Positions 7,583 through 39,383 of a stretch of 39,383 nt of DNA are shown in pieces; position 1 is the stretch's first letter; each line of letters starts with the position of its first letter. The position numbers were made by a program, and so were the translations under genes. The stretch is from a virus, in IMG/VR virus record IMGVR_UViG_3300046003_003425, positions 1 to 39,383 of that record, one strand, 5' to 3'. The notes under the pieces are model-generated. The model had not been told where the DNA came from, searched no databases, and worked only from the letters and a program-made list of their open reading frames with translations.

Positions 7583-7590
7583 TATTTATA
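7583..7590 (-). promoter_or_regulatory. TATAAATA late-type promoter box upstream of DNA polymerase
   Basis: A perfect T4 late promoter box on the minus strand. It includes the TAA stop of the radical SAM gene and lies about 60 bases before the polymerase start. The 62-base gap it opens into also holds a GCTC...GAGC inverted repeat and the polymerase ribosome binding site. A late promoter before polymerase is unexpected, so the match could be chance. Confidence 0.4.
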
Positions 7591-8620
7591 GTCCCGCAAA
7601 CCATGTGCCTGATAATTGTTTGACTTTGAAAATTTCTTGTTGTGCTGTTTCAAACTCAGGGTGCTCAGGATTAAACACATCATGAAATTGAAATTCTTTG
7701 TGTGACCAAGTTCTCCAGTTTGTTATTCTTGAATATTCTACTATATCCACATCAAATTGTTGGCACACTTGATAGAATGATTCAATTTCGCGATAATTTT
7801 GTTGTTGTACAATCATTCTAGTATGCAAGGTAATACCTTGATGATGTTTTTTATTCTGTAAAAATTTCATTGCTTGTAGCAGTTGTTGCCACTTCCCGCC
7901 ACGTCGTATTTTTTCGTATGTGCTGGCTTGCGAGGCGTCAATGCTTACAGTTATTTTTTTTACAGATGCTTGCATATCTCCTAGACGATGCCAGTTCTGT
8001 TCACACATCAATCCATTTGTTCCGATGTCTAATTCTAGATTGGGAAACTTAGAACGATCAATAGAATTTATAAAAGTCATTAACATAGGACTAGCAAAAA
8101 CTTCTCCTGTGCCACTGACTTCTAATTTTATTTTTTGATCAGTTGCCTCAGAAAACAAATTGTTACACACAATTTCTCCCACAAGGAGTTGTTGTTGCTG
8201 TTGCTCTGCTGGGGTTTTTTTAATGTGTGTGCGGCAACTAGGACAACTTAAATTACAAGTTTCGTCTCCTTGGAAACTGATATGGTGCGGCATTTCAAAT
8301 GTTGATGCGTCATTAAACAGTGCTTTTATGTTTGGAGGTACTGTGTCAATTGTGTTTAAACTGTTGTTGGTAATTACCCCACACAACTTTTCATTGCAAT
8401 AAACATATGATCCATCAATAATACTTTGTCTAATTTTTTGAGCTAAATCAGACGTCAACATTTCTTTTAATGTAGTTTTTTTTAAATTTCCAATTGTAGT
8501 CTGCATCCAGGCGCCGCACCCACACATTCTTACGTCACCGTTGAGTGTGACCTCAATCATGACAAATGGTGACAAGCAGTATTGTCCCTGAAATTGTTTA
8601 ATTGGAAAAATATTAATCAT
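7586..8620 (-). CDS. Radical SAM protein with N-terminal SPASM-like cysteine domain
   Basis: A 344-residue protein with a canonical radical SAM cluster CNLSCPSC (CX3CX2C; Cys ~122, 126, 129) that would bind the [4Fe-4S]-SAM cluster. Upstream of it is a Cys-rich segment: Cys at about 15, 33 and 35, an IGNLKKTTLKEML stretch, then Cys at ~75 and 80. This looks like a SPASM-type auxiliary cluster domain, normally C-terminal but here placed first. A SGTGEVF segment follows at the position of the SAM-binding GGE motif. The ATG at 8620 is preferred over the TTG one codon upstream. The DsbA-like gene ends three bases before it, so the two are co-transcribed. The substrate is unknown; SPASM radical SAM enzymes usually modify peptides or sugars. 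Confidence 0.8.
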   Translation of the reverse strand: MINIFPIKQFQGQYCLSPFVMIEVTLNGDVRMCGCGAWMQTTIGNLKKTTLKEMLTSDLAQKIRQSIIDGSYVYCNEKLCGVITNNSLNTIDTVPPNIKALFNDASTFEMPHHISFQGDETCNLSCPSCRTHIKKTPAEQQQQQLLVGEIVCNNLFSEATDQKIKLEVSGTGEVFASPMLMTFINSIDRSKFPNLELDIGTNGLMCEQNWHRLGDMQASVKKITVSIDASQASTYEKIRRGGKWQQLLQAMKFLQNKKHHQGITLHTRMIVQQQNYREIESFYQVCQQFDVDIVEYSRITNWRTWSHKEFQFHDVFNPEHPEFETAQQEIFKVKQLSGTWFAGL

Positions 8621-8623
8621 CAA

Positions 8624-12000: not shown

Positions 12001-12804
12001 CCATAAGATTTCTTCACCTACCTTGGGTGTATACTCTGCTGGAGCAGCCTCCGCCACCGGGGCTAGTTGTACAGGTTGATTGGCAGCGTGTGTTCCACCT
12101 GCGTCTATGTTGGCCATGTTTTGCTTGTACTGTGCTGCGGCTGCTGGATCATTCTTGTCTAGGTATGCTTGCTGTGCGGCTTGCACTTGTTCAGCAGTTG
12201 AACCGGGTGGCAATCCAAAACGCTTGCCCATTCTATCTAAAATCTTTTGCTCATATGCAGTAGTAACTTGATCAATATTGGATCCTGCGGCAGCACCCAC
12301 CCGTGATCCTAGCTTGTCTAGAGTGTTTTGAGTTGCTGTTGCAACAGGATCCTGACCTTGTTCTTCATAAATGCCGCCGTCAATAACTTCGGCTGGGATA
12401 CCTTTGGCTTCAAATTTATTGGCTATGGTTTCTGCAACATCTTGATTGTTAATGCCTTGCTTGACTATAGAAAATCCATCGTTATTGATATCGTCTATGA
12501 CCCTACGTTGAGGAGTGCCTTCTTGGTTATTCCAAGTCACATACGGATAATCTCTAGGCAAAATACTTTGCAAGGCTTCAAACAATTGCCGGGCTTCAAA
12601 TGTTTGTCTAGGTCCTACAAAAGTTCCCACTACCTTGATTGAAAAACTACGACTTGGTGGTGTATCCGTTTGTGCGCCAGTGCCTGTTGCTTGCCCTGTT
12701 GGCATTTCTACTTCACCTTCGGCCATACCTTGCTCATAGTTGCGAGAAGTAGTCTCGTTTAATTTTTTCTTGTTATTGTCTTCAAATAGCTGGTCAATGA
12801 TCAT
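9043..12804 (-). CDS. Large multidomain virion-type protein with LysM domain and candidate prohead-protease sites
   Basis: A 1253-residue protein. The N-terminus MIIDQLFE resembles a T4 capsid-targeting peptide. Residues ~255-315 and ~345-420 look like two small beta-barrel (KOW/SH3-like) domains. An Ala/Gly-rich hydrophobic region at ~570-625 could interact with membranes. A LysM-like peptidoglycan-binding domain lies at ~650-696 (TYTVMQGD... LNPD... LPVGTELQLP). Low-complexity Ala/Pro/Thr linkers at ~1030-1165 lead to a helical C-terminus. Triplets of type (V/I/L/M)-(A/T/N)-Glu recur (15-17, 27-29, 123-125, 250-252, 323-325, 430-432, 438-440, 459-461, 890-892, 1193-1195, 1223-1225), several as Gln-Gly-x-(A/T)-Glu. 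They suggest cleavage by a gp21-type protease. LysM plus a hydrophobic region fits a packaged or tail protein that meets the host cell wall. It is not recognisable as a tape measure. Confidence 0.7.
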   Translation of the reverse strand: MIIDQLFEDNNKKKLNETTSRNYEQGMAEGEVEMPTGQATGTGAQTDTPPSRSFSIKVVGTFVGPRQTFEARQLFEALQSILPRDYPYVTWNNQEGTPQRRVIDDINNDGFSIVKQGINNQDVAETIANKFEAKGIPAEVIDGGIYEEQGQDPVATATQNTLDKLGSRVGAAAGSNIDQVTTAYEQKILDRMGKRFGLPPGSTAEQVQAAQQAYLDKNDPAAAAQYKQNMANIDAGGTHAANQPVQLAPVAEAAPAEYTPKVGEEILWRPRFAKMVPVPVTVVAVAPGKLKIKLQSPRMIQNYGKDTIVVDLEKSDVTPKQGIAEADRLPRPDNWKPPVPAPRPRLAPQKRLEIGDTIGFTPQKHDATSSGKVFKAEVLEIGGRLGRSGILLKLLNPEDVAANGGNSTMKVSSMISKIQNPYVEPAQQGVTESRQRRLNEAMLMEDPVYRKFKKVGRYIAERKMSEKEILQVFADAESGMTDKGTGANRTFLGRGKDTTMDFAGGVKDAMTSVLNSIQNSTPVAAVDVAYDQATDALAKVAGGQKGAVMNAIKKYRNLVKQYPKTAGFAKAALVAIAGLATGGAGLPVIAGLTYALDSAIKGDKLSSVLGKGAGAAALTAAGQAAFGGDAAADTVTPDSIGLPDVPTDGGTYTVMQGDQGGFIAQANGVPFKDLKALNPDITNWNKLPVGTELQLPPSGPNTGSVWQGTDMSSPGAGMSQADMGNFRADNLARMQDQADAAYYAGKPDDFGIPARSNDAVGTGMPGSAPTTNPIVGKNTFPDGTPIERTPYGNSSQEYMKQFGGSQPNQGGSGFTGTTVAGIPVIPGQPLNPTQMAVANMSMQSGNQLSPVVQAAYDLAKRGALRESIKFKILPAEKLIDQKSTVMSWALNESVGRRSISLNLTTLGTYTVFENVDRYRKAIMELKGVPGSTRPDYYRPDMMDAPTKPDKKPGLIGRGLNWLDKKAGQVGGALSNFGHQFTTGVTKEKLKMNWHQAGKPSDSDQLAAWLTKQGVPQEVVTTVYGKMGIPYVAPASAEPAVEPGTPATEPATPAAGGAQKSLPFYGKNPTTGKAWTRDELLAKDATTAPAAPAAAAAPATTTAQNPAGFNASNVMNLPGMEKYAKQPAPAKTANFGASPGGYSNVTTSFKPTTPAKSPTAPAAPAGTRVTSGGPTPDEQARLAQRIAQATAKPVAEMLRMVETKEDVAKIKQFIDRTFVKYGAVTESAFVVRNRLIEHVTQVGAQRRREHAQMS

Positions 12805-14470: not shown

Positions 14471-15457
14471 ATGCTAAAACTGCAAGATATACGTCGTATA
14501 CACGTAGAACTCACAACACGATGTAATGCTCGTTGCCCAATGTGTATGCGAAACTATCGCGGTGTAGACTACAACTCTGGATACCCAGACACTGAATTGT
14601 CCCTAGAACAGTTTAAACAAATTGTGACCCCAGAATTTCTAGCGCAATTGACTCACGTGAGTTTTAATGGCAACTTGGGTGATTTTTCCTTGGCACGAGA
14701 CGCCTTGGAAATTGTGCAGTATGTGGTGTCTCACAATGTATCAGTAAACATCAATACCAATGCAAGTTTACGCCCGACTGCCTGGTGGCACAAGCTGGCG
14801 CATCCTGCGGTTGAAGTGGGATTTGCAATTGATGGCTTAGCAGATACTCATGCACTTTATCGACAAGACACAAACTGGAATCGTGTGATAGAAAATGCAC
14901 AATCATTTATATCTGCTGGTGGCCGAGCTGTGTGGAGATTTGTACCGTTTGATCACAATCAACATCAGGAACAAGCATGTCGTGAGTTGGCCAAAGAGAT
15001 GGGATTCAAACGTTTTGAAAATATCTATGATGGTAGAGACACTGGCCCTGTGTATTCCCGTACTGGTGAATTTTCACACTGGTTGGGTCGGCCACAATCT
15101 GAGGCGCCGCCAATTTCTGCAATGTTAGAAAGTCATATCACCTGGTTCAAAGTAGATATGCAATTTGTTAAAGATACACCAGAACTTAACTTGGGATGTG
15201 TACACAAACGACACAAAGAAATATATATTGCAGCTGATGGGTCAGTGTATCCGTGTTGTTACTTGGGATTTTATCCTGGGCAAATGACACATCCAGGAAA
15301 CTCACAATTAGCAGACATGGTTCAAGAGAACAACGCATTAAAATACAGTTTAGAACACTGTATGTCCTGGTTTGACCAAGTAGAAGAATCCTGGAACAAA
15401 TCAAGTATAAAGGAAGGACGACTGTACCAGTGTGTAAACAGTTGTAATCAAGTATGA
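14471..15457 (+). CDS. Radical SAM/SPASM protein
   Basis: A 328-residue protein with CNARCPMC at residues 18-25 (CX3CX2C; Cys18, 22, 25). It is followed by a SFNGNLGDFS segment in place of the usual GGE motif and by strands typical of the partial TIM barrel (NINTNAS, GFAIDG). The C-terminal part has LGCVHK, an IAADGSVYPCC segment and terminal Cys (YQCVNSC), the pattern of a SPASM or twitch domain holding extra iron-sulfur clusters. It begins the rightward part of a sugar-modification island and overlaps the next gene by 4 bases. SPASM enzymes modify peptides, sugars or small molecules; the neighbours favour a glycan-related substrate, but this is inference. Confidence 0.85.
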   Translation: MLKLQDIRRIHVELTTRCNARCPMCMRNYRGVDYNSGYPDTELSLEQFKQIVTPEFLAQLTHVSFNGNLGDFSLARDALEIVQYVVSHNVSVNINTNASLRPTAWWHKLAHPAVEVGFAIDGLADTHALYRQDTNWNRVIENAQSFISAGGRAVWRFVPFDHNQHQEQACRELAKEMGFKRFENIYDGRDTGPVYSRTGEFSHWLGRPQSEAPPISAMLESHITWFKVDMQFVKDTPELNLGCVHKRHKEIYIAADGSVYPCCYLGFYPGQMTHPGNSQLADMVQENNALKYSLEHCMSWFDQVEESWNKSSIKEGRLYQCVNSCNQV

Positions 15458-20051: not shown

Positions 20052-21073
20052 TTGCGTTTTGCCTTTGCTCTACCGGCTTTCATGTTGGCCATCCAGTGTG
20101 CCAATTGCCCCTTGCGACCGCCTTGCTTGGCCACTTTACGCAGGGTGCTTACACTTGCTTTGGTGGGCACACCGTGGCGCTTTGAATCGCCCTTGTCCTG
20201 CGGATTTTTGCCATCAGCAAAGTTTTCTGCAACTGGTTGTAATCTACTCAATTCATATATGACTAAATCACCAGTGTCTGCACGGAACGCTCTGTAGCCC
20301 CATGCTTTAGCATAACGCTGAACCAGTCGGTCATACAGCTTGGCACGACTTTCAGGATTTGGTTGAGGCTGGTCAGGCTCATAGTATATTGTTGGGTCAG
20401 TTGCTTTGCTGGCTGAAAAACTCAATCTTGCGGGTTTGTATTTTTTAATGTACTTTTGTATGGAAGTCAACACTGTGGCAAAGATTTTTTGCGCATCACC
20501 TTCACCTGTGACTTCTTGGCTGTTGTTTCTATAGAACTCAACTTGTATGGTTTCTTCACCTTCATTATTTTGTTGCTTATTAAACATGATGCTTAAATTT
20601 GTGCCATCTGGCAGTCGGGCCAACATGTCAATATCGCCATAATCACTTTTTTCTGTTTTGGTCTTATAGGGCTGGTCAAATGCTTCTTTGATGTAGACAT
20701 TTTCCAGTGCTGCGGCTGTGCCTGGATGCATGGGCGCAGGCCACTTGCCCAATTCTGTCCAGCAATAGTCTTGCCACTCACTATTAGGTTTGGGCTCAAA
20801 CTCATGTGGCACAACACCAATAAATGTCACGTACTTTGCGTTTTTGGCCAAGGGCTCTATTCTAACAGGACCGCTATAACCTGACTCTTCAGCTAGTTCT
20901 CTCCTGGCACATTGTTCCAGTGACTCACCTGATTTTCTACCGCCGCCCCAGGCTGCCCATAAACCTGGATCATTTACTGAGTCTGATCTTTGTTGCAGTC
21001 CCCAACGACCAGTATCTTCTGCATAGAGAACAATGCCAGCAGCACTCGGTTCAGTGAATTCTTGAGCTCGCAT
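20048..21073 (-). CDS. Nudix hydrolase with extra domains, candidate packaged polyprotein
   Basis: A 341-residue protein with three parts. The N-terminal MRAQEFTE resembles a capsid-targeting peptide. A Nudix hydrolase domain (~9-128) has a complete Nudix box, G44-x5-E50-x7-REL-x-EE-x-G65, so it should hydrolyse a nucleoside diphosphate linked to another moiety. After IKE (128-130) comes an unassigned alpha/beta domain (~135-278; EVTGEGDAQKIFATVL and KLYDRLVQRYA segments). After VAE (281-283) a basic tail follows (KASVSTLRKVAKQ, AHWMANMKAGRAKA). The IKE and VAE sites match the prohead-protease type. The gene begins at a TAATG overlap with the large amidoligase gene. Confidence 0.8.
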   Translation of the reverse strand: MRAQEFTEPSAAGIVLYAEDTGRWGLQQRSDSVNDPGLWAAWGGGRKSGESLEQCARRELAEESGYSGPVRIEPLAKNAKYVTFIGVVPHEFEPKPNSEWQDYCWTELGKWPAPMHPGTAAALENVYIKEAFDQPYKTKTEKSDYGDIDMLARLPDGTNLSIMFNKQQNNEGEETIQVEFYRNNSQEVTGEGDAQKIFATVLTSIQKYIKKYKPARLSFSASKATDPTIYYEPDQPQPNPESRAKLYDRLVQRYAKAWGYRAFRADTGDLVIYELSRLQPVAENFADGKNPQDKGDSKRHGVPTKASVSTLRKVAKQGGRKGQLAHWMANMKAGRAKAKRK

Positions 21074-24000
21074 TATGTATTACCCATTACTGGCACAACT
21101 TCAATTTGTACCAAGTCTGTATTTGGAGCATTACTTCTTATCCATTGTAAGGCAATACCATTCGCATCTGACTGCGAATTACCCGCACCGCTGAATCTAT
21201 ATAATTCTTCACCAGTGTCAACATTCATTACTTTCCAAGCACCAGTAAAGCCGCCAGCGGCACGTTGTTGTGCAAGGTCAGTTGTACTACCTGGGGTAAT
21301 ATACGGTGATATATCTGGCTCAATATCAATAATGCCACCTTGCGCTTGGTCTGTGGTCTGCGAGACACCTTGTCTAGTTCTTACTTCAAAGTCATTGGGA
21401 TTGTGGCCGTTTTGGCTTAGCCACGTTCTTGCTTCAGTTTCAGCGGCACCGCGATTTGTAAACTCTGGATTGTAGTAAACTTGATTGTTGCTTCTGCTGG
21501 CAACTTCCCATGGTCCAGGACCAGTTGGTCTCAGCGGGTTCACATCTGTTTGTACTGTGTCTGCAGGCTGGTCCCATTGTTCAGTATCCACCACCATATA
21601 GTCAGCAGGAACTACATTGTTTCTAGCAGCCCATGCTTGGAGAATATATCTGCCTTGTGCCTGCTCTGCTGGATTGCCCATGTTGAATCTAAATAGATAT
21701 TCAGGTCGGCGGCCACTTCGTCCATACAAGGCTGGATCCGAGCGCGGCACAACAGCATAGCGACCGTTGGGATCGTTGGGTCTACCGCTTTGGCTTCTGT
21801 CAGTATTTGTTCCGTACACAATATTTTCGTCACCAGGATGTGCGTCTTTCCACTGCTGTAATACTACATAGGCATCTTGGTAATTAACAGCATTAAATCT
21901 ATAAATGATTTCATCAGTATCTGAATTTTTCAAATACCAGTTACCGTCAGGATTACTAGGACGGCCGTTCAAGGTTACTGCGTTGTCATCTTCGGCAGGA
22001 CGAACAGGAGTAGCGATCCAACGGTTGGTTCTAAAGAATTCTTGTTCTGGAGTTGTACCTATGTTTAAATTCCATCGTCGTCTGGCTTTTTGCATTGCTT
22101 CAAGCTCGCTACTAGCAACAACTTCTATGCCTTGTCTTTGATATGGGGAATCAGTGCCTTGAACTTTCCATACAAACGGCTTGTCCAAACTGGTGTCTTC
22201 AAATGGACGCAAAGGCTTGGCCACAACTGATTGTCGTGTGTTGGCCCAGCTAGGATAGCCATCTGGTCCCAGGGCTTGAGCAATGGCGTCTTCTCGAGAG
22301 GTAGCAACAACTTCTATACCGGCAGAACTTTGCGGGGGATTAGTAACGCTCCACCACATTTTTTGATTGATTGTTTCGCCTCGTTTTACCTTGCGCTCTA
22401 GTTGTGCTTGCTTAACAAAACTACGCAAGGCAGCCTTGGGTAGCTCACCAGCAGCATATTGTGCAAAATACTTGATCGTGTCTGAATCCTTTTGGTCCGC
22501 AGTCAATAATTTGTAAAGTTTCTTTTGATACTCTTGACGATAAGCATCCGGATTCAGTGCCGCACTCATGGCCACTGTGAATCTCAACAGGGTGTTTTCA
22601 ATCTTGTCAAAGTTGTCATCCAACCAGTCACCGCCTGGTGAACGGAATTCAATGTGTCCGTCCTTGGTGTTGATGCTGGTGTATTTGCTAGTAATACCTG
22701 AGTGGATGGCCTTGGTAGCAAGTGCATCTAAGTTACCCTTCATCTTGTCCAGCAACTGTTTTGCTGCATCTGGATTTTCACGTACTTTTTCCTTGACCAG
22801 CTTCATAGCTGACTTAGCGTAGGTGTTGCCAACACGACCAAATAAGTCCAGGATATACTCGTCGCCCATTAACAATGCTAACTTTACGAAGTCTAAGTTT
22901 TCTCTGCTGTAGTCGGGCACTGAGATATTGATGTGCAGGCCTGTTGAGTCATTTGTATAGCAACCATATTCTTTGGCCCAGGCCTTGACTTTGTTCAAGT
23001 CACTCAATATATCGTCAATGGGCAGGGGCGGGCTCACGAATTCTAAGCCAGTGTCGCCACTGTTATCTGGTTCTAAACTGCCATCAGGTTCTACAATATA
23101 GTGTTGTGCGGTTGGGCTAGGTCTTTGTACACTGCCGGAGTGGTAGTTGCCGCTGGCTCTAGTATCACGGCCTATTGCATTTTCAAACTCTTGCGCCACG
23201 TCTTCGATGCTGGCTTCGCCACCACCAACGGTGGTCCAATGCGGCCAACTTATCTCATAGGCGTTTTCGACCCCACTCATGCGGTCAAGGTCTTCAGCGT
23301 CTAACCAGTCGCTTTCGTCATATGAATCTCGATTTTCTTCTTGGAACTCTTCAAAAGCATCACTGCTGCCAGGATCAGCATGCAGTTTGGCAATATATTC
23401 TTCTAGTGCTTCAGTGCGAGCCTCGCCTTCCAAGCCGTCGGGGTTCCATTCAGATTCGTCTACGTTGTTGGGTACCCATTCTTCTAGGTATTCTTCGCCA
23501 CCGCGTTCCCAGTCTTGATAGAGTTTGTCGCTCAGCCATTCCTGGAAATCATTCTGCATTCTTTCACGCAAGCGTTCAACTTCTCTGCGGCCGTTGTAGT
23601 CTCCGTCGTAGAAGAATTGCACAGCATCATCGATGCTACGGCAGCGTTCATCGTAATTATCATAATCAGGTTCCAAATCACCGTCATCGTTGCCTTCAGT
23701 GTTGGGCACAATCATTTCAAATTCCATGCCAGCAATAGCACCAGTTTTAGCCGCTTCCTTGCGTAGACTCTTGCTGCCCATGTTTATTTCAAACAAGTCT
23801 TGCTCTTCAAACAACTCTAACTCTTGTAGCAGGCTTTCTGCTAATGCGTTTTCACCTACGTTGTAGGTGGGATCAGTCTTTTGACGCGGCATGCCTTTGG
23901 GTTGCTTAGGATCCTTAGGGTCAATGTCCGTGGTAGTGAGTCCAGTCTTTTCTAGATCCTTGATATACTTGTGTTCAGTTTCTTCGTCACCAAATGATAG

Positions 24001-25560
24001 TATGGCACTAGGTGCACCTTGGCCAAAGTCATGCTTGCCCAGGCCCTTCATGTTTGAGATATGCTGGCCTAGCTTGTACCAGTCATATACATCACTGACA
24101 TCAACTTTTACAGTACCCGCTGGCATTGTAGGCGGGGTCTCTGGGCCTAGTGGTTCGTTTAAGTCGCGGTACTTGCCCGGACCTTGTGATGGTTGTGGCA
24201 TACGTGCTTCTGCCATGTTCACACGCCCATCAGCACGTAGCATTTGCGGCTTGCCTTGTGCATCTGTTTTTAGTCGCATGCGGTTTGCGTTTAGTCCCGT
24301 TGCACCAGGACGAACGTCCACACTCAAGGCCATTTCAAAGCGTGGATCATTCTTTTCTGCTTCAGTTGGAATGTAGCCTGAGCTTTCGGCAATTGCTTTT
24401 TCTTTAAAGTATTCTGGATGTGCATCTGCAAAGTTACGCATCACAATGCCAGCCACAGCATGTGCTTCGTTTTCTATATCGCTGCCAGTTTCACCTGCGT
24501 CAGGACCTAGTTTTTTTATCTCGTGCTGGCGGCAATGAGCCAGCTCATGTGCTGTGGTGCGCATGATATCCAACAAGTGTCTGTTGGCCAAGTTAACTTG
24601 CAGAGTATGCGAATCGGGTTGGTACATACCAAAAGAACGATTCTGTTCACTCCAGGCCGGATCATTATGCAACACAATTTCGGGCAAGTTTTCAATGCCC
24701 AAGTAACGTGCTGTATCGTATATGAACTCATCAATAATGTGTTCAGTTGATGGTTCGTCTTCCAAGAACATCTTGGTGCTTGGGTCTACTCCATCTGGAC
24801 TTTCTGTAACAAAACCGTATATAACCGGAGCCGCATGTTTGTTTTTTTCTGCTAGACTCAGTTGCTGATCACGGGCAGCATTTCTAGCGTCAATTAATTT
24901 TTTAATGTAACCTTGATTGCGCAACAGTTTAAATGCAATGTTGTCTGTACCAAACTCACCGTTTTGTTCAAGACCTGTTTGGCGCATGGTTTTAATTTTG
25001 CGCTGCAAATTAGCAATGTGATCGTAGTCACCTGACGCCACAGCAGAGTCAATACGTGCAGATAAATCTTGTACTTTGTCTCTTACTGCGCTGTCGTTGA
25101 TTTCTGCACGGCGGCGTTTGGGCACACTCAGCCAGCTGTTGCGTAACAGGCTGTAAACACCTTGTGAGTGGTGTTCTTCATCGCTGGGTTGTACGTATAA
25201 CTCTACGTCTGAGCCACCAATTTTGATATTGTGTTGATCGTTGTACTGATACTTTTTGGCATCAAAAAGCTCACGGAATACTTCGTCGTATTTTGTATCA
25301 GGGATATCTACCACTAGATGTAGATCAATGTCTGATTTGTCAGTATAACTGTATGCTGCGTTGGACCCTGATATTGTGATATCTTTAACTTGTAGGTCTT
25401 CTACTCCAAGAAACTCCTGGAAGTCTTTTGCAACTTCAAGGAGTTTTTCTTTTACTTGTGGATGTAAATGTTCGCTATTGTCCCACAAACGATGGTTTAA
25501 TCGATCATGGAACTTGATAGCGTCGCCTAGGTTAAATGTGTCCAGTTCAAGAATATTCAT
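21073..25560 (-). CDS. Giant multidomain protein: nucleotidyltransferase, zinc metallopeptidase-like and amidoligase domains plus tandem repeats
   Basis: A 1495-residue protein. (1) Residues ~1-240 form a nucleotidyltransferase-fold domain with G65-S66 and SDIDLH, Asp77 and Asp79 as metal ligands. (2) Residues ~254-392 form a zincin domain with HELAH (338-342) and Glu365 in an ENEAHA helix. (3) Residues ~452-575 are an unassigned domain. (4) Residues ~600-1060 are an amidoligase-type (glutamine-synthetase-fold) domain: GMEFEM (611-616), EPDGSLEP then GLEFVSPPL (824-846), TGLHINI (873-879) and DGHIEFRSPGGD (967-978). (5) Six divergent repeats occupy ~1068-1490. VTE (251-253), IAE (390-392), MAE (449-451) and LAE (573-575) fall at domain borders, suggesting proteolytic release of each domain. 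The function as a whole is unknown. Amidoligases form amide bonds to peptides or cell-wall material. Confidence 0.8.
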   Translation of the reverse strand: MNILELDTFNLGDAIKFHDRLNHRLWDNSEHLHPQVKEKLLEVAKDFQEFLGVEDLQVKDITISGSNAAYSYTDKSDIDLHLVVDIPDTKYDEVFRELFDAKKYQYNDQHNIKIGGSDVELYVQPSDEEHHSQGVYSLLRNSWLSVPKRRRAEINDSAVRDKVQDLSARIDSAVASGDYDHIANLQRKIKTMRQTGLEQNGEFGTDNIAFKLLRNQGYIKKLIDARNAARDQQLSLAEKNKHAAPVIYGFVTESPDGVDPSTKMFLEDEPSTEHIIDEFIYDTARYLGIENLPEIVLHNDPAWSEQNRSFGMYQPDSHTLQVNLANRHLLDIMRTTAHELAHCRQHEIKKLGPDAGETGSDIENEAHAVAGIVMRNFADAHPEYFKEKAIAESSGYIPTEAEKNDPRFEMALSVDVRPGATGLNANRMRLKTDAQGKPQMLRADGRVNMAEARMPQPSQGPGKYRDLNEPLGPETPPTMPAGTVKVDVSDVYDWYKLGQHISNMKGLGKHDFGQGAPSAILSFGDEETEHKYIKDLEKTGLTTTDIDPKDPKQPKGMPRQKTDPTYNVGENALAESLLQELELFEEQDLFEINMGSKSLRKEAAKTGAIAGMEFEMIVPNTEGNDDGDLEPDYDNYDERCRSIDDAVQFFYDGDYNGRREVERLRERMQNDFQEWLSDKLYQDWERGGEEYLEEWVPNNVDESEWNPDGLEGEARTEALEEYIAKLHADPGSSDAFEEFQEENRDSYDESDWLDAEDLDRMSGVENAYEISWPHWTTVGGGEASIEDVAQEFENAIGRDTRASGNYHSGSVQRPSPTAQHYIVEPDGSLEPDNSGDTGLEFVSPPLPIDDILSDLNKVKAWAKEYGCYTNDSTGLHINISVPDYSRENLDFVKLALLMGDEYILDLFGRVGNTYAKSAMKLVKEKVRENPDAAKQLLDKMKGNLDALATKAIHSGITSKYTSINTKDGHIEFRSPGGDWLDDNFDKIENTLLRFTVAMSAALNPDAYRQEYQKKLYKLLTADQKDSDTIKYFAQYAAGELPKAALRSFVKQAQLERKVKRGETINQKMWWSVTNPPQSSAGIEVVATSREDAIAQALGPDGYPSWANTRQSVVAKPLRPFEDTSLDKPFVWKVQGTDSPYQRQGIEVVASSELEAMQKARRRWNLNIGTTPEQEFFRTNRWIATPVRPAEDDNAVTLNGRPSNPDGNWYLKNSDTDEIIYRFNAVNYQDAYVVLQQWKDAHPGDENIVYGTNTDRSQSGRPNDPNGRYAVVPRSDPALYGRSGRRPEYLFRFNMGNPAEQAQGRYILQAWAARNNVVPADYMVVDTEQWDQPADTVQTDVNPLRPTGPGPWEVASRSNNQVYYNPEFTNRGAAETEARTWLSQNGHNPNDFEVRTRQGVSQTTDQAQGGIIDIEPDISPYITPGSTTDLAQQRAAGGFTGAWKVMNVDTGEELYRFSGAGNSQSDANGIALQWIRSNAPNTDLVQIEVVPVMGNT
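21091..22359 (-). repeat. Six divergent tandem protein repeats at the C-terminus of the giant protein
   Basis: Each repeat starts with an aromatic residue plus a short strand (WWSV 1069, VWKV 1130, NWYL 1207, RYAV 1267, PWEV 1350, AWKV 1441). A second hydrophobic strand follows (GIEVVATS, GIEVVASS, IIYRFN, YLFRFN, VYYNPEF, ELYRFS), then a helix of the A-x6-(A/L)-x-W type. Repeats are 60-90 residues apart. Together they look like a string of small beta-beta-alpha modules, as in binding or targeting arrays. Confidence 0.55.
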
Positions 25561-33365: not shown

Positions 33366-33887
33366 TTATTTCTCCGGGAATGGTGGGATTACAGGGGCGG
33401 GTTTTCCGCCGAATCCTGTGACAACTTCTGCAGGCGCTGGCGCTCCAAATCCTGCACTGCTATTACCGCTGCTTGGTATTGGGGTTGAGCCCCAACTTGG
33501 TGCTGGTGTAAAACTTGTGCTGGGTACGGCGCCGAATCCTGCTGAAGATGCGCTAGGTGCTGTAAGCCCGGTCGATGATCCTGCTGTTGCTGTTCCTGCT
33601 CCGCCATTGTTTGCTCCTGCTAGTTTTTCTTGTGTGCGGCCCATTGCTGCAATACCAAGAACTGCACCCATTGCGATGTGGAATAATCCAGCGCCTTGTA
33701 GTGTCAGTGGTTGCCATTGTGTGATTGGTTGTTTCATGACAGTTTGCAATAAACTCCACAAAATAGGGAATAAAACAAAGTCAGTTACGCAAGTTAGCAT
33801 GTACATCCAACCCATAGCCGGGCGCCACTTAGAATTCATCCAATCTTCTTTTTTTGTTTCGCTTGCACTTTTGACTTCTTCTGCCAT
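33366..33887 (-). CDS. Holin-like membrane protein
   Basis: A 173-residue protein. The N-terminal part has WRPAMGWMYMLTCVTDFVLFPILWSLL (~21-47) and, after a short loop, a second hydrophobic segment GLFHIAMGAVLGIAAMG (~67-83). This pattern of a K/R-W-R-P-motif entry and two or three membrane helices is seen in phage holins. The C-terminal half is a low-complexity Ser/Gly/Pro/Ala tail (~90-170). A perfect TATAAATA late promoter lies 23 bases upstream, as expected for a lysis gene. No endolysin is in the window. The tail may be cytoplasmic and could time the lesion. Confidence 0.65.
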   Translation of the reverse strand: MAEEVKSASETKKEDWMNSKWRPAMGWMYMLTCVTDFVLFPILWSLLQTVMKQPITQWQPLTLQGAGLFHIAMGAVLGIAAMGRTQEKLAGANNGGAGTATAGSSTGLTAPSASSAGFGAVPSTSFTPAPSWGSTPIPSSGNSSAGFGAPAPAEVVTGFGGKPAPVIPPFPEK

Positions 33888-33963: not shown

Positions 33964-33971
33964 TATAAGTA
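33964..33971 (+). promoter_or_regulatory. TATAAGTA late-like box for the csg cassette
   Basis: One mismatch from TATAAATA, 17 bases before the csgF ATG, with GAGG as ribosome binding site (33978-33981) in between. It forms a divergent pair with the holin promoter, suggesting that both units are late. Confidence 0.45.
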
Positions 33972-33988: not shown

Positions 33989-34429
33989 ATGAAAACAACA
34001 ATAACAACATTAGCCTTGATGCTGATCACAGCTGGAGTTTCTGCCACTGAATTAGTACATCAATTCAATTCGCCAGCCTTTTCTGGAGTCGGTTACAGTA
34101 GTCACGTTCTTACGATCGAGCAACTAGAAGCTACACGCCGTCAAAAACTACGAGAAGAAGAAGCAAGCAAACTAGCCAAAGCTGAGCTTGCTGCCAAACA
34201 AACCAACATAGCCAAATTCCTAGTCAACGTAGAAAGTCGCATCTATGCTCAGTTGAGCAAGCAGTTGGCAGACTCGTTGTTCAGCGGCGGCGGTACTACA
34301 GGCAGTTTGGATTTTCAAGGTACCAACATCAGCTGGGTTAAAACTTCTACTGATGTCACAATGACCATTCTGGAAAGCAATGGCAATCGCACAGAGATCA
34401 CTGTGCCACTAGCGAGTTTTGCATTTTGA
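33989..34429 (+). CDS. csgF: CsgF-like curli assembly protein
   Basis: A 146-residue protein, similar to E. coli CsgF (138). A signal peptide (MKTTITTLALMLITAGVSA) is followed by mature TELVHQFNSPAFSGVGY. This matches the F-x-N/S-P-x-F-G segment with which CsgF plugs the CsgG channel. The middle helix is long and charged (LEATRRQKLREEEASKLAK). The C-terminal region (LDFQGTNISWVKT, MTILESNG, EITVPLASF) has the strands of the CsgF outer domain. In bacteria CsgF caps the CsgG pore on the cell surface and couples it to amyloid nucleation. The stop overlaps the csgG start (TGATG), so the two are co-translated. Confidence 0.85.
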   Translation: MKTTITTLALMLITAGVSATELVHQFNSPAFSGVGYSSHVLTIEQLEATRRQKLREEEASKLAKAELAAKQTNIAKFLVNVESRIYAQLSKQLADSLFSGGGTTGSLDFQGTNISWVKTSTDVTMTILESNGNRTEITVPLASFAF

Positions 34430-35253
34430 TGAAAGCACTAGTGTTGTCATTGCTGTTGATGTTAAGCGGGTGTGCTAGTCTGAACCAAACTCAGCTGGAT
34501 TCACAACCTCCCAAATTAGTGCCACGACAAAATCTACTGGCCACACTGCCTGAATTGGATGGCCCAAGAATACCAATTGCTGTGTACGGGTTTGTGGACA
34601 AGACTGGTCAGAAAAAAAACAACGACAAGCTGGCACTGTTTTCAACTGCGGTAACACAAGGCGCTGAAGTATTTTTAATCAAGGCCTTGCAAGACACACC
34701 AAACTGGTTCACAGTGGTTGAACGTGTGAGCTTGGACAACTTGATCAAAGAACGTCAACTGATCCGTAATCAACGCGAAGTGTATGAGGGCAAAGATGCC
34801 AAGCCACTCAAACCACTCTTGGTGGCTGGACTCATGATTGAAGGTGGCATCATAGGTTATGACACCAACATAACAAGTGGCGGCACTGGCGCCAGAGTAC
34901 TGGGCATTGGAGCCAGTACACAATATCGTGTGGATGAAATTGTTATTTCCATGCGAGTAGTTTCAGTCAACACCGGGGAAGTGTTGCTGAATACGGCTGT
35001 GAGTAAAACTGTTTTTAGTACAGCTCACAATCAAGGTGTTCTCAAATTTATTGATGTTGGAACAACGTCTATTGAATTTGAGAACGGGGCTGCTGTGAAT
35101 GAGCCCACAACATACGCTGTTCGAATAGCCATTGAACAAGCGGTGTACGAAATGATCCAAGAAGGAGCAAAACGGAAACTTTGGTCATACAAAAAGGGCA
35201 CAAGCCCAAGGAATGAGGTTGAGGATAGTAACTCGCCCACAAAACAAAAATGA
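34429..35253 (+). CDS. csgG: CsgG-like outer-membrane secretion lipoprotein
   Basis: A 274-residue protein, near E. coli CsgG (277). The signal peptide ends in a lipobox LSGC (lipid-modified Cys15). Motifs shared with CsgG are IPIAVYGFVDKTGQ, FSTAV, LIKALQD...WFTVVER, NLIKERQLIR, GGIIGYDTN then SGGTGARVLGIGA..QY, and VVSVNTGEVL. CsgG forms a nonameric 36-strand pore. In the constriction loop the Tyr and Asn of E. coli (Y51, N55) are not kept, Phe56 appears kept as the F of FSTAV, and the loop is one residue longer. I chose the ATG at 34429 over the TTG one codon upstream. No CsgE is encoded in this window. Confidence 0.92.
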   Translation: MKALVLSLLLMLSGCASLNQTQLDSQPPKLVPRQNLLATLPELDGPRIPIAVYGFVDKTGQKKNNDKLALFSTAVTQGAEVFLIKALQDTPNWFTVVERVSLDNLIKERQLIRNQREVYEGKDAKPLKPLLVAGLMIEGGIIGYDTNITSGGTGARVLGIGASTQYRVDEIVISMRVVSVNTGEVLLNTAVSKTVFSTAHNQGVLKFIDVGTTSIEFENGAAVNEPTTYAVRIAIEQAVYEMIQEGAKRKLWSYKKGTSPRNEVEDSNSPTKQK

Positions 35254-35876
35254 AAATAACAAGATCTCTCAAAGGGACAATCTTTGCACTGGGCATGATA
35301 GCGTTATCGCATGTTCAAGCGTCAAATGAAATTTATATAGAGCAAGTTGGTGATAATACCACTGTGACTTTAAAACAAGCAGGTAGCAACAATACCATTG
35401 GTAGTGCTATAGCACCAGCCCTTATTGGCGGCGGTCAAAATGTAGTTTATATCGAACAATCGGGCAGTAGCAATCAGCTGGCCATGCTGGTCAATGGTGC
35501 TGGCACTAATGTGACGTCTACAGTCTTAGGCGACAGCAACCAACAAACCATCACATGCGGAACCAGCATCAGCGCCAGCTGTAGTGGATCTGCAATCACA
35601 CATACCATAACAGGTGACAACAATGATGTGCAAAGTATCCTGGGCACCAATGGTGGAGCACATACCAGTAACATCACAGTGTTGGGTGACTATAACCATG
35701 TGACTCATAGCAGTTCAGGATCAGGTGCTAACTCAGCCACAATCAATGTTTCTGGGTCGGGGTCCGGTGCTACTCCAAATGCAATCACTGTAGCACAAAG
35801 TGGTATGAATACTCAAAGTGCAACTGTCAATGCTTCGGGCAATAACATTAATATCAGTATTATTCAGTCTGACTAA
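35250..35876 (+). CDS. Curlin-repeat amyloid-like secreted protein (CsgA/CsgB-type)
   Basis: A 208-residue protein with a signal peptide (MKITRSLKGTIFALGMIALSHVQA). A curlin-type repeat follows: IYIEQVGDNTTVTLKQAGSN matches the x-I-x-I-x-Q-x-G-x-x-N pattern. Further copies lie around VYIEQSGSSNQLAML, TVLGDSNQQTIT, HTITGDNNDV, ITVLGDYNHVT and ITVAQSGMNTQ, the later ones having lost the Gln ladder. Two Cys (CGTSISASC) could form a small disulfide loop. It is read through an ATGA overlap from csgG and is the obvious substrate of that channel. Curlin subunits form surface amyloid fibres; the degenerate repeats may give a shorter or non-polymerising product. Confidence 0.8.
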   Translation: MKITRSLKGTIFALGMIALSHVQASNEIYIEQVGDNTTVTLKQAGSNNTIGSAIAPALIGGGQNVVYIEQSGSSNQLAMLVNGAGTNVTSTVLGDSNQQTITCGTSISASCSGSAITHTITGDNNDVQSILGTNGGAHTSNITVLGDYNHVTHSSSGSGANSATINVSGSGSGATPNAITVAQSGMNTQSATVNASGNNINISIIQSD

Positions 35877-36906
35877 TACTTGGGCTGGAGTAGGCAAGGT
35901 CACTGAACAAAGTGGCCCTACTGAAATAGTACGGGCTCGAAAAAGCATATCCAGTGCTGTAAATACCGCAGTGGAAATGAATGATACAATTGTCACAGCT
36001 AGATCCCGAGCTGAATTGACTTTTGATGATGCTACCAAAGTAAAAATTACCGAGCAGTCAAAGCTGATAATTGATGACTTTGTGTACGACCCAAAGTCGG
36101 GTACAGGCAAGTTGGCCATGAAAGTGGCCCTGGGCACAGCTAGGTATGCTTCGGGACAGATTGCCAAGAATTCCCCACAACAGGTTGCAGTCAGCACACC
36201 CACAGCGTCAATTGCTGTTCGTGGCACAGACTTTTCAATGACTGTAGACGAACTAGGGCGCAGTCTAATAATGCTGTTGCCCAGTTGTGACGATAAAACA
36301 TGCGTAACAGGTGCTATTGAAGTTTCAAACGAAGCTGGCAGTGTGGTAATGACACAGGCTTATCAAGCTACTTTAGTTGCTTCTGTTGATCGTGCTCCTT
36401 CATCGCCAGTGATAGTTACTCTTGATCAAGCCAATATCAACAACATGCTGATCATTAGCAGACCCCGGGAAATCAGCGAAGAAAACCGTGACAACCGACG
36501 GGACAATAGAAACGCACTAGACACTAACTTTCTTGATCGAGACTTCTTAAAACCTGCAGACTTGGACAATCAGCTGGATGCATTTAACCGACTGGATCGA
36601 AATGAACTAGAAGATGACCTGTTGCCCAATGTACTGGATGCGGTAAATGCAGCCTTGTCAGCCACGCAAGAAGCCATGTCAACTACGCTGAGTATGCTGC
36701 CTGGCTATGATGAAAGTTCAGGGCTAAAATGGCGTATAACTGATTCAGACCAGCTGGTGTTAACTAGATACAGCAGTCATATTTTTGAACTCGCTGTGCC
36801 TAAAGAGCAAGGGGCCGTCCTGGATTTGCAACAGGATGGTATTCCTGTATATCAAAAAATCAACTCGGGCGGCAGCACCACAATAACCATTATCCAAAGT
36901 CAATAA
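35830..36906 (+). CDS. FecR-domain protein with signal peptide
   Basis: About 358 residues. A signal peptide (MLRAITLISVLFSLTNTWA) is followed by a FecR domain (~20-165: ITEQSG-type start, RSRAELTFDDATKVKITEQS, KLAMKVALGTARYASG, then TPTASIAVRGTDFSM). In bacteria, FecR domains sense ligands or fold on carbohydrate- or peptidoglycan-associated proteins. A charged linker (Asp/Arg/Asn-rich, ~215-255) leads to a beta-rich C-terminus ending TTITIIQSQ. The ATG at 35830 is preferred; a GTG at 35818 is possible. Its start lies inside the curlin gene (47-base overlap), so the signal peptide and the curlin C-terminus share DNA. The convergent cyclase is a likely functional partner, as FecR/CHASE2-cyclase pairs are common in bacteria. 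Confidence 0.85.
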   Translation: MLRAITLISVLFSLTNTWAGVGKVTEQSGPTEIVRARKSISSAVNTAVEMNDTIVTARSRAELTFDDATKVKITEQSKLIIDDFVYDPKSGTGKLAMKVALGTARYASGQIAKNSPQQVAVSTPTASIAVRGTDFSMTVDELGRSLIMLLPSCDDKTCVTGAIEVSNEAGSVVMTQAYQATLVASVDRAPSSPVIVTLDQANINNMLIISRPREISEENRDNRRDNRNALDTNFLDRDFLKPADLDNQLDAFNRLDRNELEDDLLPNVLDAVNAALSATQEAMSTTLSMLPGYDESSGLKWRITDSDQLVLTRYSSHIFELAVPKEQGAVLDLQQDGIPVYQKINSGGSTTITIIQSQ

Positions 36907-36933: not shown

Positions 36934-37215
36934 ATGGGGGATATTTTCAAACTGATTGGTGATCTAGGGTTTCCGATAGCAGTGGCACTGGCCGGCGGAT
37001 ACTTTGTGTATCTCACAATCAAACTACTACTGGCAGGTGTGCTAAGTGCAATCAAGGGCATGGCTGGTATTATTACTGCACTAGACAATCGAGTAAGAAC
37101 CATGAATCACGATGTGATACGTATTGATACTATTGTGTCAAACGCACTAGGCCTTAGACCCGACGCTGACCGTATTGCGCGAGCTGACGGTAAAAACGAT
37201 GCAAGGAGAGACTGA
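36934..37215 (+). CDS. Small membrane protein, paralogue of the gene at 37601
   Basis: A 93-residue protein with one N-terminal membrane helix (GFPIAVALAGGYFVYLTIKLLLAGVLS, ~12-38) and a polar C-terminal helix (ALDNRVRTMNHDVIRIDTIV). It begins GDLGFPI and shares GFPI(A/V)xAxGxGY, IxALxxRxRxxxxDxIR and NxxLxLR with the 116-residue protein at 37601, so the two are paralogues. The topology recalls small BhlA/holin-like proteins. It starts behind a strong AAGGAG. It may assist lysis or anchor in the inner membrane; no enzyme motif. Confidence 0.65.
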   Translation: MGDIFKLIGDLGFPIAVALAGGYFVYLTIKLLLAGVLSAIKGMAGIITALDNRVRTMNHDVIRIDTIVSNALGLRPDADRIARADGKNDARRD

Positions 37216-37436
37216 TGCTTTACGAAGTTAATTTTGTATTGGATTTAAGTTACATTGCATATCTTTTGTTAGGCCTTGGGCTGGGTTATATCATGGTCTT
37301 GGGTGTAACTGGCAGCTACCGCGCTACAAAACTTGACAGAATGAAAGATGATCTTGCCGCAAAAAAAGAATGGATCCGCATGGTGTCTGAAGCTAAAAAA
37401 CAAAAAGGAAAGTACAATGCTACATCTAGATTATAA
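37215..37436 (+). CDS. Small membrane protein
   Basis: A 73-residue protein with one strong membrane helix (LSYIAYLLLGLGLGYIMVLGVTG, ~11-33) followed by a basic cytoplasmic-type helix (KLDRMKDDLAAKKEWIRMV and a Lys-rich end). Its ATG overlaps the preceding TGA (TGATG). It is co-transcribed with three other small genes that sit between the FecR and cyclase genes. Possible holin, antiholin or membrane-anchor role; not assigned. Confidence 0.6.
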   Translation: MLYEVNFVLDLSYIAYLLLGLGLGYIMVLGVTGSYRATKLDRMKDDLAAKKEWIRMVSEAKKQKGKYNATSRL

Positions 37437-37608
37437 TTGGGATCTGGGTCCTGGATACATTGTACCAGACAAAGAATTAAACACTGAAAAACTGGGCTGG
37501 AAGCCTGGACAGTTCTGGCAGATGATTGAAGTTGATGGAAAGATAAGATTGCACCAGGTAGATCCCTTGGTACAATTTGTTTTAGAAGGGTCTAATAAAA
37601 ATGAGTGA
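37417..37608 (+). CDS. Small soluble phage protein
   Basis: A 63-residue protein read from the ATG at 37417, which has AAGGAAAG in front, rather than from an in-frame upstream ATG without a site. It contains LGPGYIVPDKELNTEKLGWK and a strand pair (FWQMIEVDGKIRLHQVDP), with several Trp. It overlaps the previous gene by 20 bases and the next by 8. No membrane segment; unknown function. Confidence 0.6.
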   Translation: MLHLDYNWDLGPGYIVPDKELNTEKLGWKPGQFWQMIEVDGKIRLHQVDPLVQFVLEGSNKNE

Positions 37609-37951
37609 AGTAGTAGATTTAGTAAACAAATATGGGTTCCCAATTGTGATGGCAGTGGGCATGGGCTATATCATCAAGTATGTGTGGGAATGGGCCACAA
37701 AAGAAGTCAAGCCTGTTATCAATGATGCCAACGCTGTGTTGATTGCTCTGATTGACCGCATACGTATGTTGGACAATGATCTTATTCGGTTGAATCAAAA
37801 GGTCAATACTGTGTTACATTTGCGTGGTAAGATGATTGAAAGCGATCGTGTTATGGAAACACAAAAGGTTGAATCCGCAGCCAACGCCAAGTTTCATGAA
37901 GCTATGGACGAAGTAGATAAGATTGCTGCTGACAACAAGAGTAAAAAGTAA
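37601..37951 (+). CDS. Small membrane protein, paralogue of the gene at 36934
   Basis: A 116-residue protein with a membrane helix (GFPIVMAVGMGYIIKYVWEWAT, ~12-33), then a heptad-like helix (LIALIDRIRMLDNDLIRLNQKV) and a charged tail (SAANAKFHEAMDEVDKIAADNK). It aligns along its first 80 residues with the 93-residue protein at 36934, so gene duplication produced the pair. Its stop abuts the stop of the convergent cyclase with no base in between. A coiled-coil region suggests that it oligomerises in the membrane. Confidence 0.65.
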   Translation: MSEVVDLVNKYGFPIVMAVGMGYIIKYVWEWATKEVKPVINDANAVLIALIDRIRMLDNDLIRLNQKVNTVLHLRGKMIESDRVMETQKVESAANAKFHEAMDEVDKIAADNKSKK

Positions 37952-39383
37952 TTACTTTTCGTGTGCGATAAACTCACCCTGCCAGTTGTCTGGTAGGGCC
38001 TGTTGTTTCATAAACTCACAACGTTCAATCCACATTTTGTAGTACTTGTCCATTTGCCCGCTGAATTTTCCGTGCAGTTCTTCACACAAGATAACAGCAG
38101 CGTCAAACTGTTTCTGACGGTATAACTCATGCATCTTGTTGTGTGTAGAAAGTTCTTTAGTATAATCTTCACCACGTGTACGTAGTACTGTATAGATTAA
38201 GTCTGCTACAGTTTTACCTTTTGGTTGTAAGTTATCCAACAGCAAGTAGAAGAAGTCATCTCGAGTTCTATTGTAGGTTTCTGCTCCAACAATGGCCAGT
38301 ACACCATAAGCCTTACAACGTGCTTCTAGTCGTGCCGCTGTTGAAACCATGTCACCTAAGATGTCATAGCTGTGTCGTTCTGTTGAACCCATTTCACCAA
38401 TAAAGCCAATGCCTGTGTTACAACCCCACCCCATAGCGGCTGGTGGTAATCCCTGTGCTTCCATCAGCTTGGTATATTCATCTACAGCATCCAACATCTC
38501 TAAGCCAACACGAACGATAGTGCGAGCATGATTGGGATCTTCAATAGGAGCACCATGTATGTGCATAGAGGCATCACCCACATATTTGATGATCATGCCC
38601 TTGTTGTCCAACATGGGCTGACTGATGCTGTCCATGTAGCCGTTCATGTATCGGCCAAGTCCAGCAACATCATCACCGTAGTGTTCACCGATAGGAGTAA
38701 AGCCACGTAAGTCACTGAACATAACACTTACGTCTTTACGTACACCACGCTTGATCAAGTCAGGATCTTTTTGCAGTAACTCTACAACTTCCTTGGAACA
38801 GTAGCCTGCAAATTGTTTTTTGATTGCTTGTTTTTGGAGGAACTCTGAGACAAATTTGATTCCGTATGCGTGTAGCCCAACGAGGACGATGCCCGCGACT
38901 GGGAGGGTAACGTCAAATAACCAAAGGTAATTGACAAAACTAAAGTAACTGCCATACGCAAGTACAGCACATATTCCAACCAACGAGATAAGACCAACAT
39001 AAACCCACCTTGTAAGAATCAATAATAACACACCTGCTGCCAAGATAACAAGTATTTCGACTCCGTCAGCGTAGTCTGGGCGCACAATATTTGTGCCTGC
39101 GGCCACGGTGTCTAGTACACTGGCTTGCAAATAGTGCGGATAGACTTCTCCTCTTGCAGTTGCAACGGGGTTGTTGAGCCCGCGAGCTGTGAGTCCGACA
39201 ATGACAATTCCACCTTGGAAGTCCTTTGGCAGATCAGCCAAGGAATGTTCTTGCGGCTGGGATGACCAATCCACCCAGATTCTACCGAGATTGTCTGTTG
39301 GAATTTTTCCAAACTGTGGAATTCTAACTGCTTCAACGCTTCCGTCATTGACTCGGACCTGGAAGCTGGGATCTCCGGCAAGG
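37952..39383 (-). CDS. CHASE2-domain class III adenylate cyclase (partial, N-terminus outside window)
   Basis: The last 476 residues of a protein that begins past the right edge. The C-terminal end of an extracytoplasmic CHASE2 sensor (IVIVGLTARG... YPHYLQASVLDTVAAG) is followed by three membrane helices (~110-170). A class III cyclase domain comes next: FSDLRGFT with catalytic Asp224, KYVGD with Lys266 and second metal Asp270, and YDILGDMVSTAARLE with Asp340. The Lys/Asp pair is the adenine-specific combination, so the product should be cAMP. The transition-state Asn is replaced by Ser347; Arg351 is kept. Upstream in-frame codons reach the edge (AGDPSFQVRVNDGS), so the apparent GTG start inside the window is not the true start. 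A phage-borne cyclase could raise host cAMP in response to an envelope signal. Confidence 0.93.
   Translation of the reverse strand, partial: LAGDPSFQVRVNDGSVEAVRIPQFGKIPTDNLGRIWVDWSSQPQEHSLADLPKDFQGGIVIVGLTARGLNNPVATARGEVYPHYLQASVLDTVAAGTNIVRPDYADGVEILVILAAGVLLLILTRWVYVGLISLVGICAVLAYGSYFSFVNYLWLFDVTLPVAGIVLVGLHAYGIKFVSEFLQKQAIKKQFAGYCSKEVVELLQKDPDLIKRGVRKDVSVMFSDLRGFTPIGEHYGDDVAGLGRYMNGYMDSISQPMLDNKGMIIKYVGDASMHIHGAPIEDPNHARTIVRVGLEMLDAVDEYTKLMEAQGLPPAAMGWGCNTGIGFIGEMGSTERHSYDILGDMVSTAARLEARCKAYGVLAIVGAETYNRTRDDFFYLLLDNLQPKGKTVADLIYTVLRTRGEDYTKELSTHNKMHELYRQKQFDAAVILCEELHGKFSGQMDKYYKMWIERCEFMKQQALPDNWQGEFIAHEK

Follow-up and report, generated by a model that had tools for sequence, protein, structure and literature searches.

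The DNA analysed here, referred to below as the window, is the whole of the virus record IMGVR_UViG_3300046003_003425 (39,383 bases). At positions 33989–36906, on the plus strand, it carries an apparently intact curli-type (type VIII) secretion module with genes for CsgF, CsgG, a curlin-repeat protein and a FecR-domain protein, and the module continues beyond these four genes to the window end. Curli are protein fibres with which many bacteria adhere to one another. The "FecR" protein appears to be a secreted fusion, in which a poorly structured linker joins a FecR domain to a C-terminal curlin-like domain, rather than a FecI/FecR regulator. We propose that this phage type VIII module builds a surface amyloid on the infected cell, and that the FecR protein would anchor the fibre at the pore and nucleate it there, a reading of which we are about half convinced.

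Genes and integrity of the module

The original prediction described a phage-borne curli-type unit of four overlapping plus-strand genes. The coordinates and the Pfam matches confirmed the arrangement, and the description as a phage-borne unit was supported. The genes, and the two domains of the last one, are as follows.

33989..34429, plus strand: csgF (PF10614, E 3.3e-13), with a Sec signal and an N-terminal pore-binding stretch
34429..35253, plus strand: csgG, outer-membrane lipoprotein channel (PF03783, E 4.5e-53); the open reading frame (ORF) opens with TTG at 34426, with an ATG at 34429
35250..35876, plus strand: curlin-repeat protein (PF07012, E 4.4e-4), with a Sec signal; beta-solenoid, about 22–24 residues per repeat
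35818..36906, plus strand: FecR-domain protein (PF04773, E 1.9e-10), starting inside the 3' end of the curlin gene
35893..36378, plus strand: FecR domain (residues 26–187) in the AlphaFold2 (AF2) model, with a Foldseek match to the PupR cell-surface signalling domain 6ovk (E 1.4e-4)
36715..36903, plus strand: curlin-like C-terminal domain of the FecR protein (residues 300–362), ending in TITIIQSQ

The four genes overlap successively by a few to 59 bases, and each of the four proteins matched its Pfam family (CsgF, CsgG, curlin and FecR). The three elements of a type VIII (curli) system, a CsgG channel, a CsgF with its pore-binding stretch and a secreted curlin-repeat substrate, were all present. 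Profile searches placed CsgF and CsgG in PF10614 and PF03783. In the N-terminal pore-binding stretch, HQFNSPAFSG of the phage CsgF aligned with FQFRNPNFGG of E. coli CsgF, and the Cys of the CsgG lipobox (LSGC) was invariant among relatives. Several phage CsgG proteins (L014:10004-11146, L037:9959-11095 and others) bore a C-terminal extension of approximately 100–150 residues, SH3-like by eye. The PF07012 match of the window curlin was slightly below the curated cut-off, and 50 of 50 aligned relatives matched the family, the best with an E-value of 2e-9. The window protein matched the published curlin-repeat pattern (PMC10192328) four times. Its AF2 model was a solenoid with a row of strands of about seven residues (predicted local distance difference test, pLDDT, 87.6).

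No window gene matched CsgE (PF10627), as had been stated in the original prediction, and the wider search found it in 0 of 18 related phage records of up to 364 kb. This loss does not exclude membership of type VIII, since CsgE is also absent from alphaproteobacterial operons (PMC9599517). A CsgG without its gate could serve to admit larger nutrients into a nutrient-poor host, as proposed in PMC7029224 and PMC9599517; the failure to find CsgE in all 18 records searched would suit such an uptake pore, which we regard as very improbable because the conserved curlin, the CsgF and the curlin-tailed FecR protein are left unexplained by it.

At least 82 csgG relatives were found in IMG/VR, and about 80 related viral contigs shared the gene order of the module. 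Among the 37 loci with full flanks, csgF, csgG, fecR and a cyclase gene were present in all, and the curlin gene in 34. The ratio of nonsynonymous to synonymous substitution rates (dN/dS), calculated against close relatives, was 0.05–0.13 across csgF, csgG, curlin and fecR; these four genes are therefore under purifying selection. A chimeric contig with a break at about 33.9 kb was rejected, because two independent contigs from other samples (L004 and L005) keep the same order across this position, from ClpA, DnaJ and the holin-like gene into csgF and csgG.

The FecR-domain protein and its curlin-like tail

In the AF2 model of the FecR-domain protein, residues 2–20 formed a signal-like helix with the FecR domain directly after it. 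A linker of about 90 residues followed, with a pLDDT mostly below 50, and the tail consisted of six strands of 5–7 residues each (pLDDT about 88). The identity as a FecI/FecR sigma-factor regulator was rejected, as a signal helix is present instead of the cytoplasmic anti-sigma N-terminus and internal transmembrane (TM) helix. The PF04773 domain was found in 58 of 58 members, and no further FecR-regulator family matched any of them.

The tail shares with curlins a C-terminal motif, defined as [ILV]x[ILVF]xQ plus 0–3 residues at the protein end. It was present in all 73 complete phage FecR proteins and in 72 of 79 curlins, versus 7 of 1455 other genes, and it also holds in the FecR proteins of phages Melnitz and HTVC008M and of phage contigs filed in bacterial bins. 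It is also found at the end of CsgB, the nucleator of E. coli (AIRVTQR). Within their last 60 residues, 42 of the 73 FecR proteins contained the published curlin pattern, as compared to 21 of 1455 others; among non-redundant FecR tails it was found in 29 of 53, versus a mean of 4.5 and a largest value of 12 in 500 shuffles. When the profile of the tail was compared with 67 sets using hhalign, phage curlin came first (E 4e-5), in register at the C-termini, and cellular curlins second (5e-3); the remaining sets, including reversed curlin, gave 0.027 or more. These lines of evidence are partly dependent, the sequences being related (FecR proteins 31–90% identical to the window copy).

An origin of the motif as an artefact of gene overlap was rejected for FecR, whose end in the window sits in no overlap. 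The 3' end of the curlin gene overlaps the FecR start, and the conservation of the motif at the curlin end could have two causes. Other proteins exported by means of the same tail were not found, the 7 motif matches among the 1455 genes being scattered and four of them ClpS-like. Among the matches listed for 385 alphaproteobacterial genomes (126 with FecR-domain matches), no cellular FecR with the tail was present; those matches ended at approximately position 254 of 363. The motif was found in 0 of 8 complete cellular FecR ORFs examined. Judging from these sequences, the curlin-like tail appears to be peculiar to the FecR proteins of the phages.

A Foldseek search with the FecR model also matched 5ix9, a 76-residue "cell surface anchoring domain" (1.1 Å over 63 columns), which we take to be an RTX-adhesin retention domain; through retention modules, adhesins are kept in their outer-membrane pore. 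A sequence search of the Protein Data Bank (PDB) with the FecR profile gave nothing useful.

On the basis of family membership and conserved residues, CsgG would be the outer-membrane pore, which CsgF would line and extend, and the curlin would be exported and stack into a putative beta-solenoid fibre. CsgG passes only unfolded chains, through an eyelet of about 12 Å (PMC7304575), and a folded FecR domain would therefore stop at the pore. We propose that this domain folds in the periplasm and stays at the CsgG mouth as a plug or anchor, and that the linker and the curlin-like tail may traverse the pore, so that a curlin template would be displayed outside. CsgB is a nucleator sitting on CsgF (PMC7304575); its nucleation work would be done by the FecR tail, perhaps together with part of the gating by the missing CsgE. 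One phage protein would then combine a periplasmic plug or retention domain with a curlin-like nucleating tail passing through CsgG–CsgF, replace both CsgB and CsgE, and yield a minimal self-gated amyloid secretion system, to which an inner-membrane pair and a sensor cyclase would also belong. This last proposal is a tentative one, and we consider it somewhat doubtful in its entirety. The purpose of the module would most likely be an altered surface of the infected cell, leading to aggregation or to the exclusion of other phages.

Several points weigh against this surface amyloid anchored by FecR. The homology between tail and curlin is weak by sequence (hhalign probability 45–70%), and when only the marine FecR tails are used, the alignment with phage curlin is limited to 15 columns (E 0.005), with the motif kept. 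The curlin model gave only non-significant E-values against solved curli structures (0.2 for the CsgA fibril). The 5ix9 match is a lead only, as the Foldseek output does not locate the matching part in the FecR model. The FecR protein of a chromosomal operon in Hyphomonas is without the curlin-like tail, which is thus not needed in every such operon. Finally, no clumping was reported for cells infected by Melnitz, a carrier of the same module (PMC9004378).

Membrane pair, cyclase and neighbouring genes

Beyond fecR, the module takes in a pair of small membrane proteins and a CHASE2 cyclase, reaching the window edge. This extension had been missed by the original prediction, as had the curlin-like tail of FecR. 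The features surrounding the four central genes are the following.

36934..37215, plus strand: small single-TM protein A (phrog_18771), ending in RADGKNDARRD
37417..37608, plus strand: small ORF between the TM pair, conserved in relatives (31 loci)
37601..37951, plus strand: small single-TM protein B (phrog_18771 paralogue, PHROG E 2e-29)
37952..39382, minus strand: CHASE2-adenylate/guanylate cyclase (PF00211, E 3e-14; PF05226, E 8e-9), cut by the window end
33366..33887, minus strand: gene transfer agent (GTA)-type holin-like gene with three TM segments, a divergent neighbour (PF11351, E 2.3e-7)
33964..33971, plus strand: T4-late-promoter-like box TATAAGTA, directly 5' of csgF, weak, with one mismatch

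The phrog_18771 family was found in 62 loci, usually as the pair A and B. In the 37 loci with full flanks, at least one member was present in 32 and two in 28, and among named phages the pair occurred only beside curli modules (gp11-12 of HTVC008M; gp97-98 of Melnitz). It is possibly this pair that is called histidine kinases in PMC9599517. That they are histidine kinases was rejected, the proteins being too short (about 93–116 residues) and a kinase domain not being found in them.

A different function was proposed for the pore in PMC9004378, in which CsgG–CsgF, together with small holin-like membrane proteins, would open the outer membrane or time lysis. The gene order of Melnitz was argued there in favour of it, and the weak similarity of protein B to the holin family phrog_4898 (E 4e-5), the GTA_holin_3TM gene at 33366-33887 and the T4-late-like box found 5' of csgF in relatives point in the same direction. 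A bare pore needs neither the substrate and its signal peptide nor the FecR protein, all of which are conserved and under purifying selection, and as only about 12 loci have a GTA-type holin close to the module and the membrane pair is without a clear holin family, we judge a lysis device to be quite unlikely. That the two membrane proteins are true holins was rejected, as the similarity is weak and covers the first 22 residues only. The GTA-type gene is probably outside the module; like its left neighbours ClpA and DnaJ, it has an opposite orientation to the module.

The original prediction offered lysis, aggregation and exclusion as roles. Surface display, as aggregation or exclusion, appears to be a better fit than a pore for lysis, since the substrate and the FecR protein are retained, often together with an autotransporter-like protein; the last, present in about 30 relatives, argues for display. 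This secreted protein of approximately 620–1445 residues lies within the module, either in the csgF–csgG gap or after fecR (L026:13131-15179, L030:7995-10004, L014:12901-17238), and is absent in the window. It matched PF03797 in L026 (E 1e-11), and two other members had no Pfam match.

Expression late in infection, suggested earlier from the box in front of csgF, received weak support. One-mismatch boxes of the TATAAGTA type were at chance level over the whole window, including the one before csgF. In the relatives, a TATAAATA-like box (at most one mismatch, within the 80 bases 5' of csgF) was enriched, being found in 32 of 62 distinct sequences versus about 11 in shuffles.

The cyclases were of two kinds. 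In 35 of 67 the catalytic Asn and Asp were present, and in 32, the window copy included, these positions were occupied by Ser and by Ser or Gly; the metal-binding Asp, the Lys and the Arg were kept in all 67. The transition-state Asn was thus replaced by Ser in the window copy and 31 of the 66 others, and about half of the cyclases, that of the window among them, may be weak or inactive sensors, as far as their residues indicate. In Burkholderia and P. aeruginosa, a biofilm operon couples FecR-domain proteins with CHASE2 histidine kinases (PMC5192318). In the anchored-fibre model, the FecR domain is probably what the cyclase detects on the periplasmic side. The same pairing, and the joint presence of FecR and the CHASE2 cyclase in 37 of 37 loci and in the Hyphomonas operon, would also suit a signalling module in which an iron-type FecR regulator, as in PMC9599517, and the cyclase rewire host expression, curli being one output. 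We hold this to be unlikely, given that the signal helix replaces the anti-sigma domain, that none of the 58 members has another FecR-family domain, that the curlin-like tail is left unexplained and that the Asn-to-Ser change makes activity doubtful in 32 of the 67 cyclases.

Host-type genes were located upstream of csgF in L016, L026, L035 and other relatives (ClpS, Hsp20, DnaK-like, ferredoxin-dependent bilin reductase, a heme oxygenase-like gene, so named by its look, and a fatty acid desaturase); the window has ClpA and DnaJ near the module. Elsewhere in the window, a 1495-residue amidoligase-domain protein (21073-25560), a 1253-residue LysM protein (9043-12804) and two radical-SAM proteins, one with SPASM (7586-8623 and 14471-15457), were observed.

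Carrier phages and related modules

The description of the window DNA polymerase as T4-like holds loosely, the closest named relatives being those of the jumbo phages Phosso (50%) and Atu_ph07 (47%). Related contigs reached 364 kb; a related polymerase (65–89%) was present in eight large ones and in the contig of L005, and a terminase in 8 of 16. The only named phages with a csgG relative were Melnitz (four strains) and HTVC008M, to which a 1.5-kb unannotated fragment is added. As judged from sequence comparison, the carriers are a jumbo-phage lineage separate from the known module carriers and polymerase-related to Atu_ph07 and Phosso, which is new here. Eight loci (L084, L085, L086, L114, L116, L123, L137 and L141) were filed in bacterial metagenome bins (Rhodobacteraceae, Pirellulales, Bacteroidota, Synechococcus). 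A cellular origin was rejected and they were read as phage, all but L086 having the membrane pair and all falling in the phage CsgG group.

Genes csgF and csgG were reported in pelagimyophages (PMC7029224) and in Melnitz, the latter with the lysis-timing proposal (PMC9004378). Curlin, FecR and cyclase, without CsgE, were described in 2022 in SAR11 myo- and podoviruses, with an alphaproteobacterial origin suggested (PMC9599517). The full csgF–csgG–curlin–fecR set as such is therefore not new, contrary to the original prediction: it exists in these pelagiphages and in the records of Melnitz (gp99-104) and HTVC008M (gp14-19), where the order is csgF–csgG–curlin–fecR–curlin–cyclase. The type VIII secretion system (T8SS) module of pelagiphages and methylophages has in common with the window the csgF–csgG–curlin–fecR order, the CHASE2 cyclase, the membrane pair, the C-terminal motif of the FecR tail and the absence of CsgE; CsgG and FecR are 40–53% identical between them. 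The second curlin of HTVC008M and Melnitz is absent in the window, the cyclase is inverted, and the membrane pair, unnamed and just upstream of csgF in those two phages, is downstream. The module features used in PMC9599517 (CsgF, CsgG and curlin, then FecR, with a cyclase nearby and no CsgE) were found in the window, except for the one or two "histidine kinases" before csgF, a place taken by the TM pair in HTVC008M, Melnitz and many relatives.

The same csgF–csgG–curlin–fecR–CHASE2 cyclase order was observed in Hyphomonas sp. TMED17 (L098:9471-15494), flanked by ordinary bacterial genes on a 705-kb contig. In this operon the membrane pair was not found and the curlin is longer (504 residues). 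In the CsgG tree, the Hyphomonas protein was nested within the clade of the phages and binned phage contigs (100/98), and 71 other bacterial sequences were placed outside this group. The Hyphomonas operon could be a donor or a recipient of the module. As compared to csgBAC/csgDEFG of E. coli, CsgG and CsgF are homologous, and the lipobox Cys, the NP.F.G of CsgF and the constriction Phe of CsgG are conserved, whereas the constriction Tyr and Asn of CsgG are not. CsgE and a separate CsgB were not found in the window, and the FecR–curlin fusion and the cyclase are added.

What is new is the jumbo-phage carriers, the curlin-like tail of "FecR" and the membrane pair travelling with the module. Phage curli have been a puzzle since 2020, as their modules looked incomplete and it was not obvious how the FecR gene belonged to them. 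If FecR is the anchor and nucleator of the fibre, the modules would be complete without CsgB and CsgE, which could be tested with four genes in E. coli. The presence of the module across many jumbo phages, genomically distant from the pelagiphages, indicates that it is widely kept and is transferred as a whole; two uncharacterised membrane proteins are thereby implicated as parts of it.

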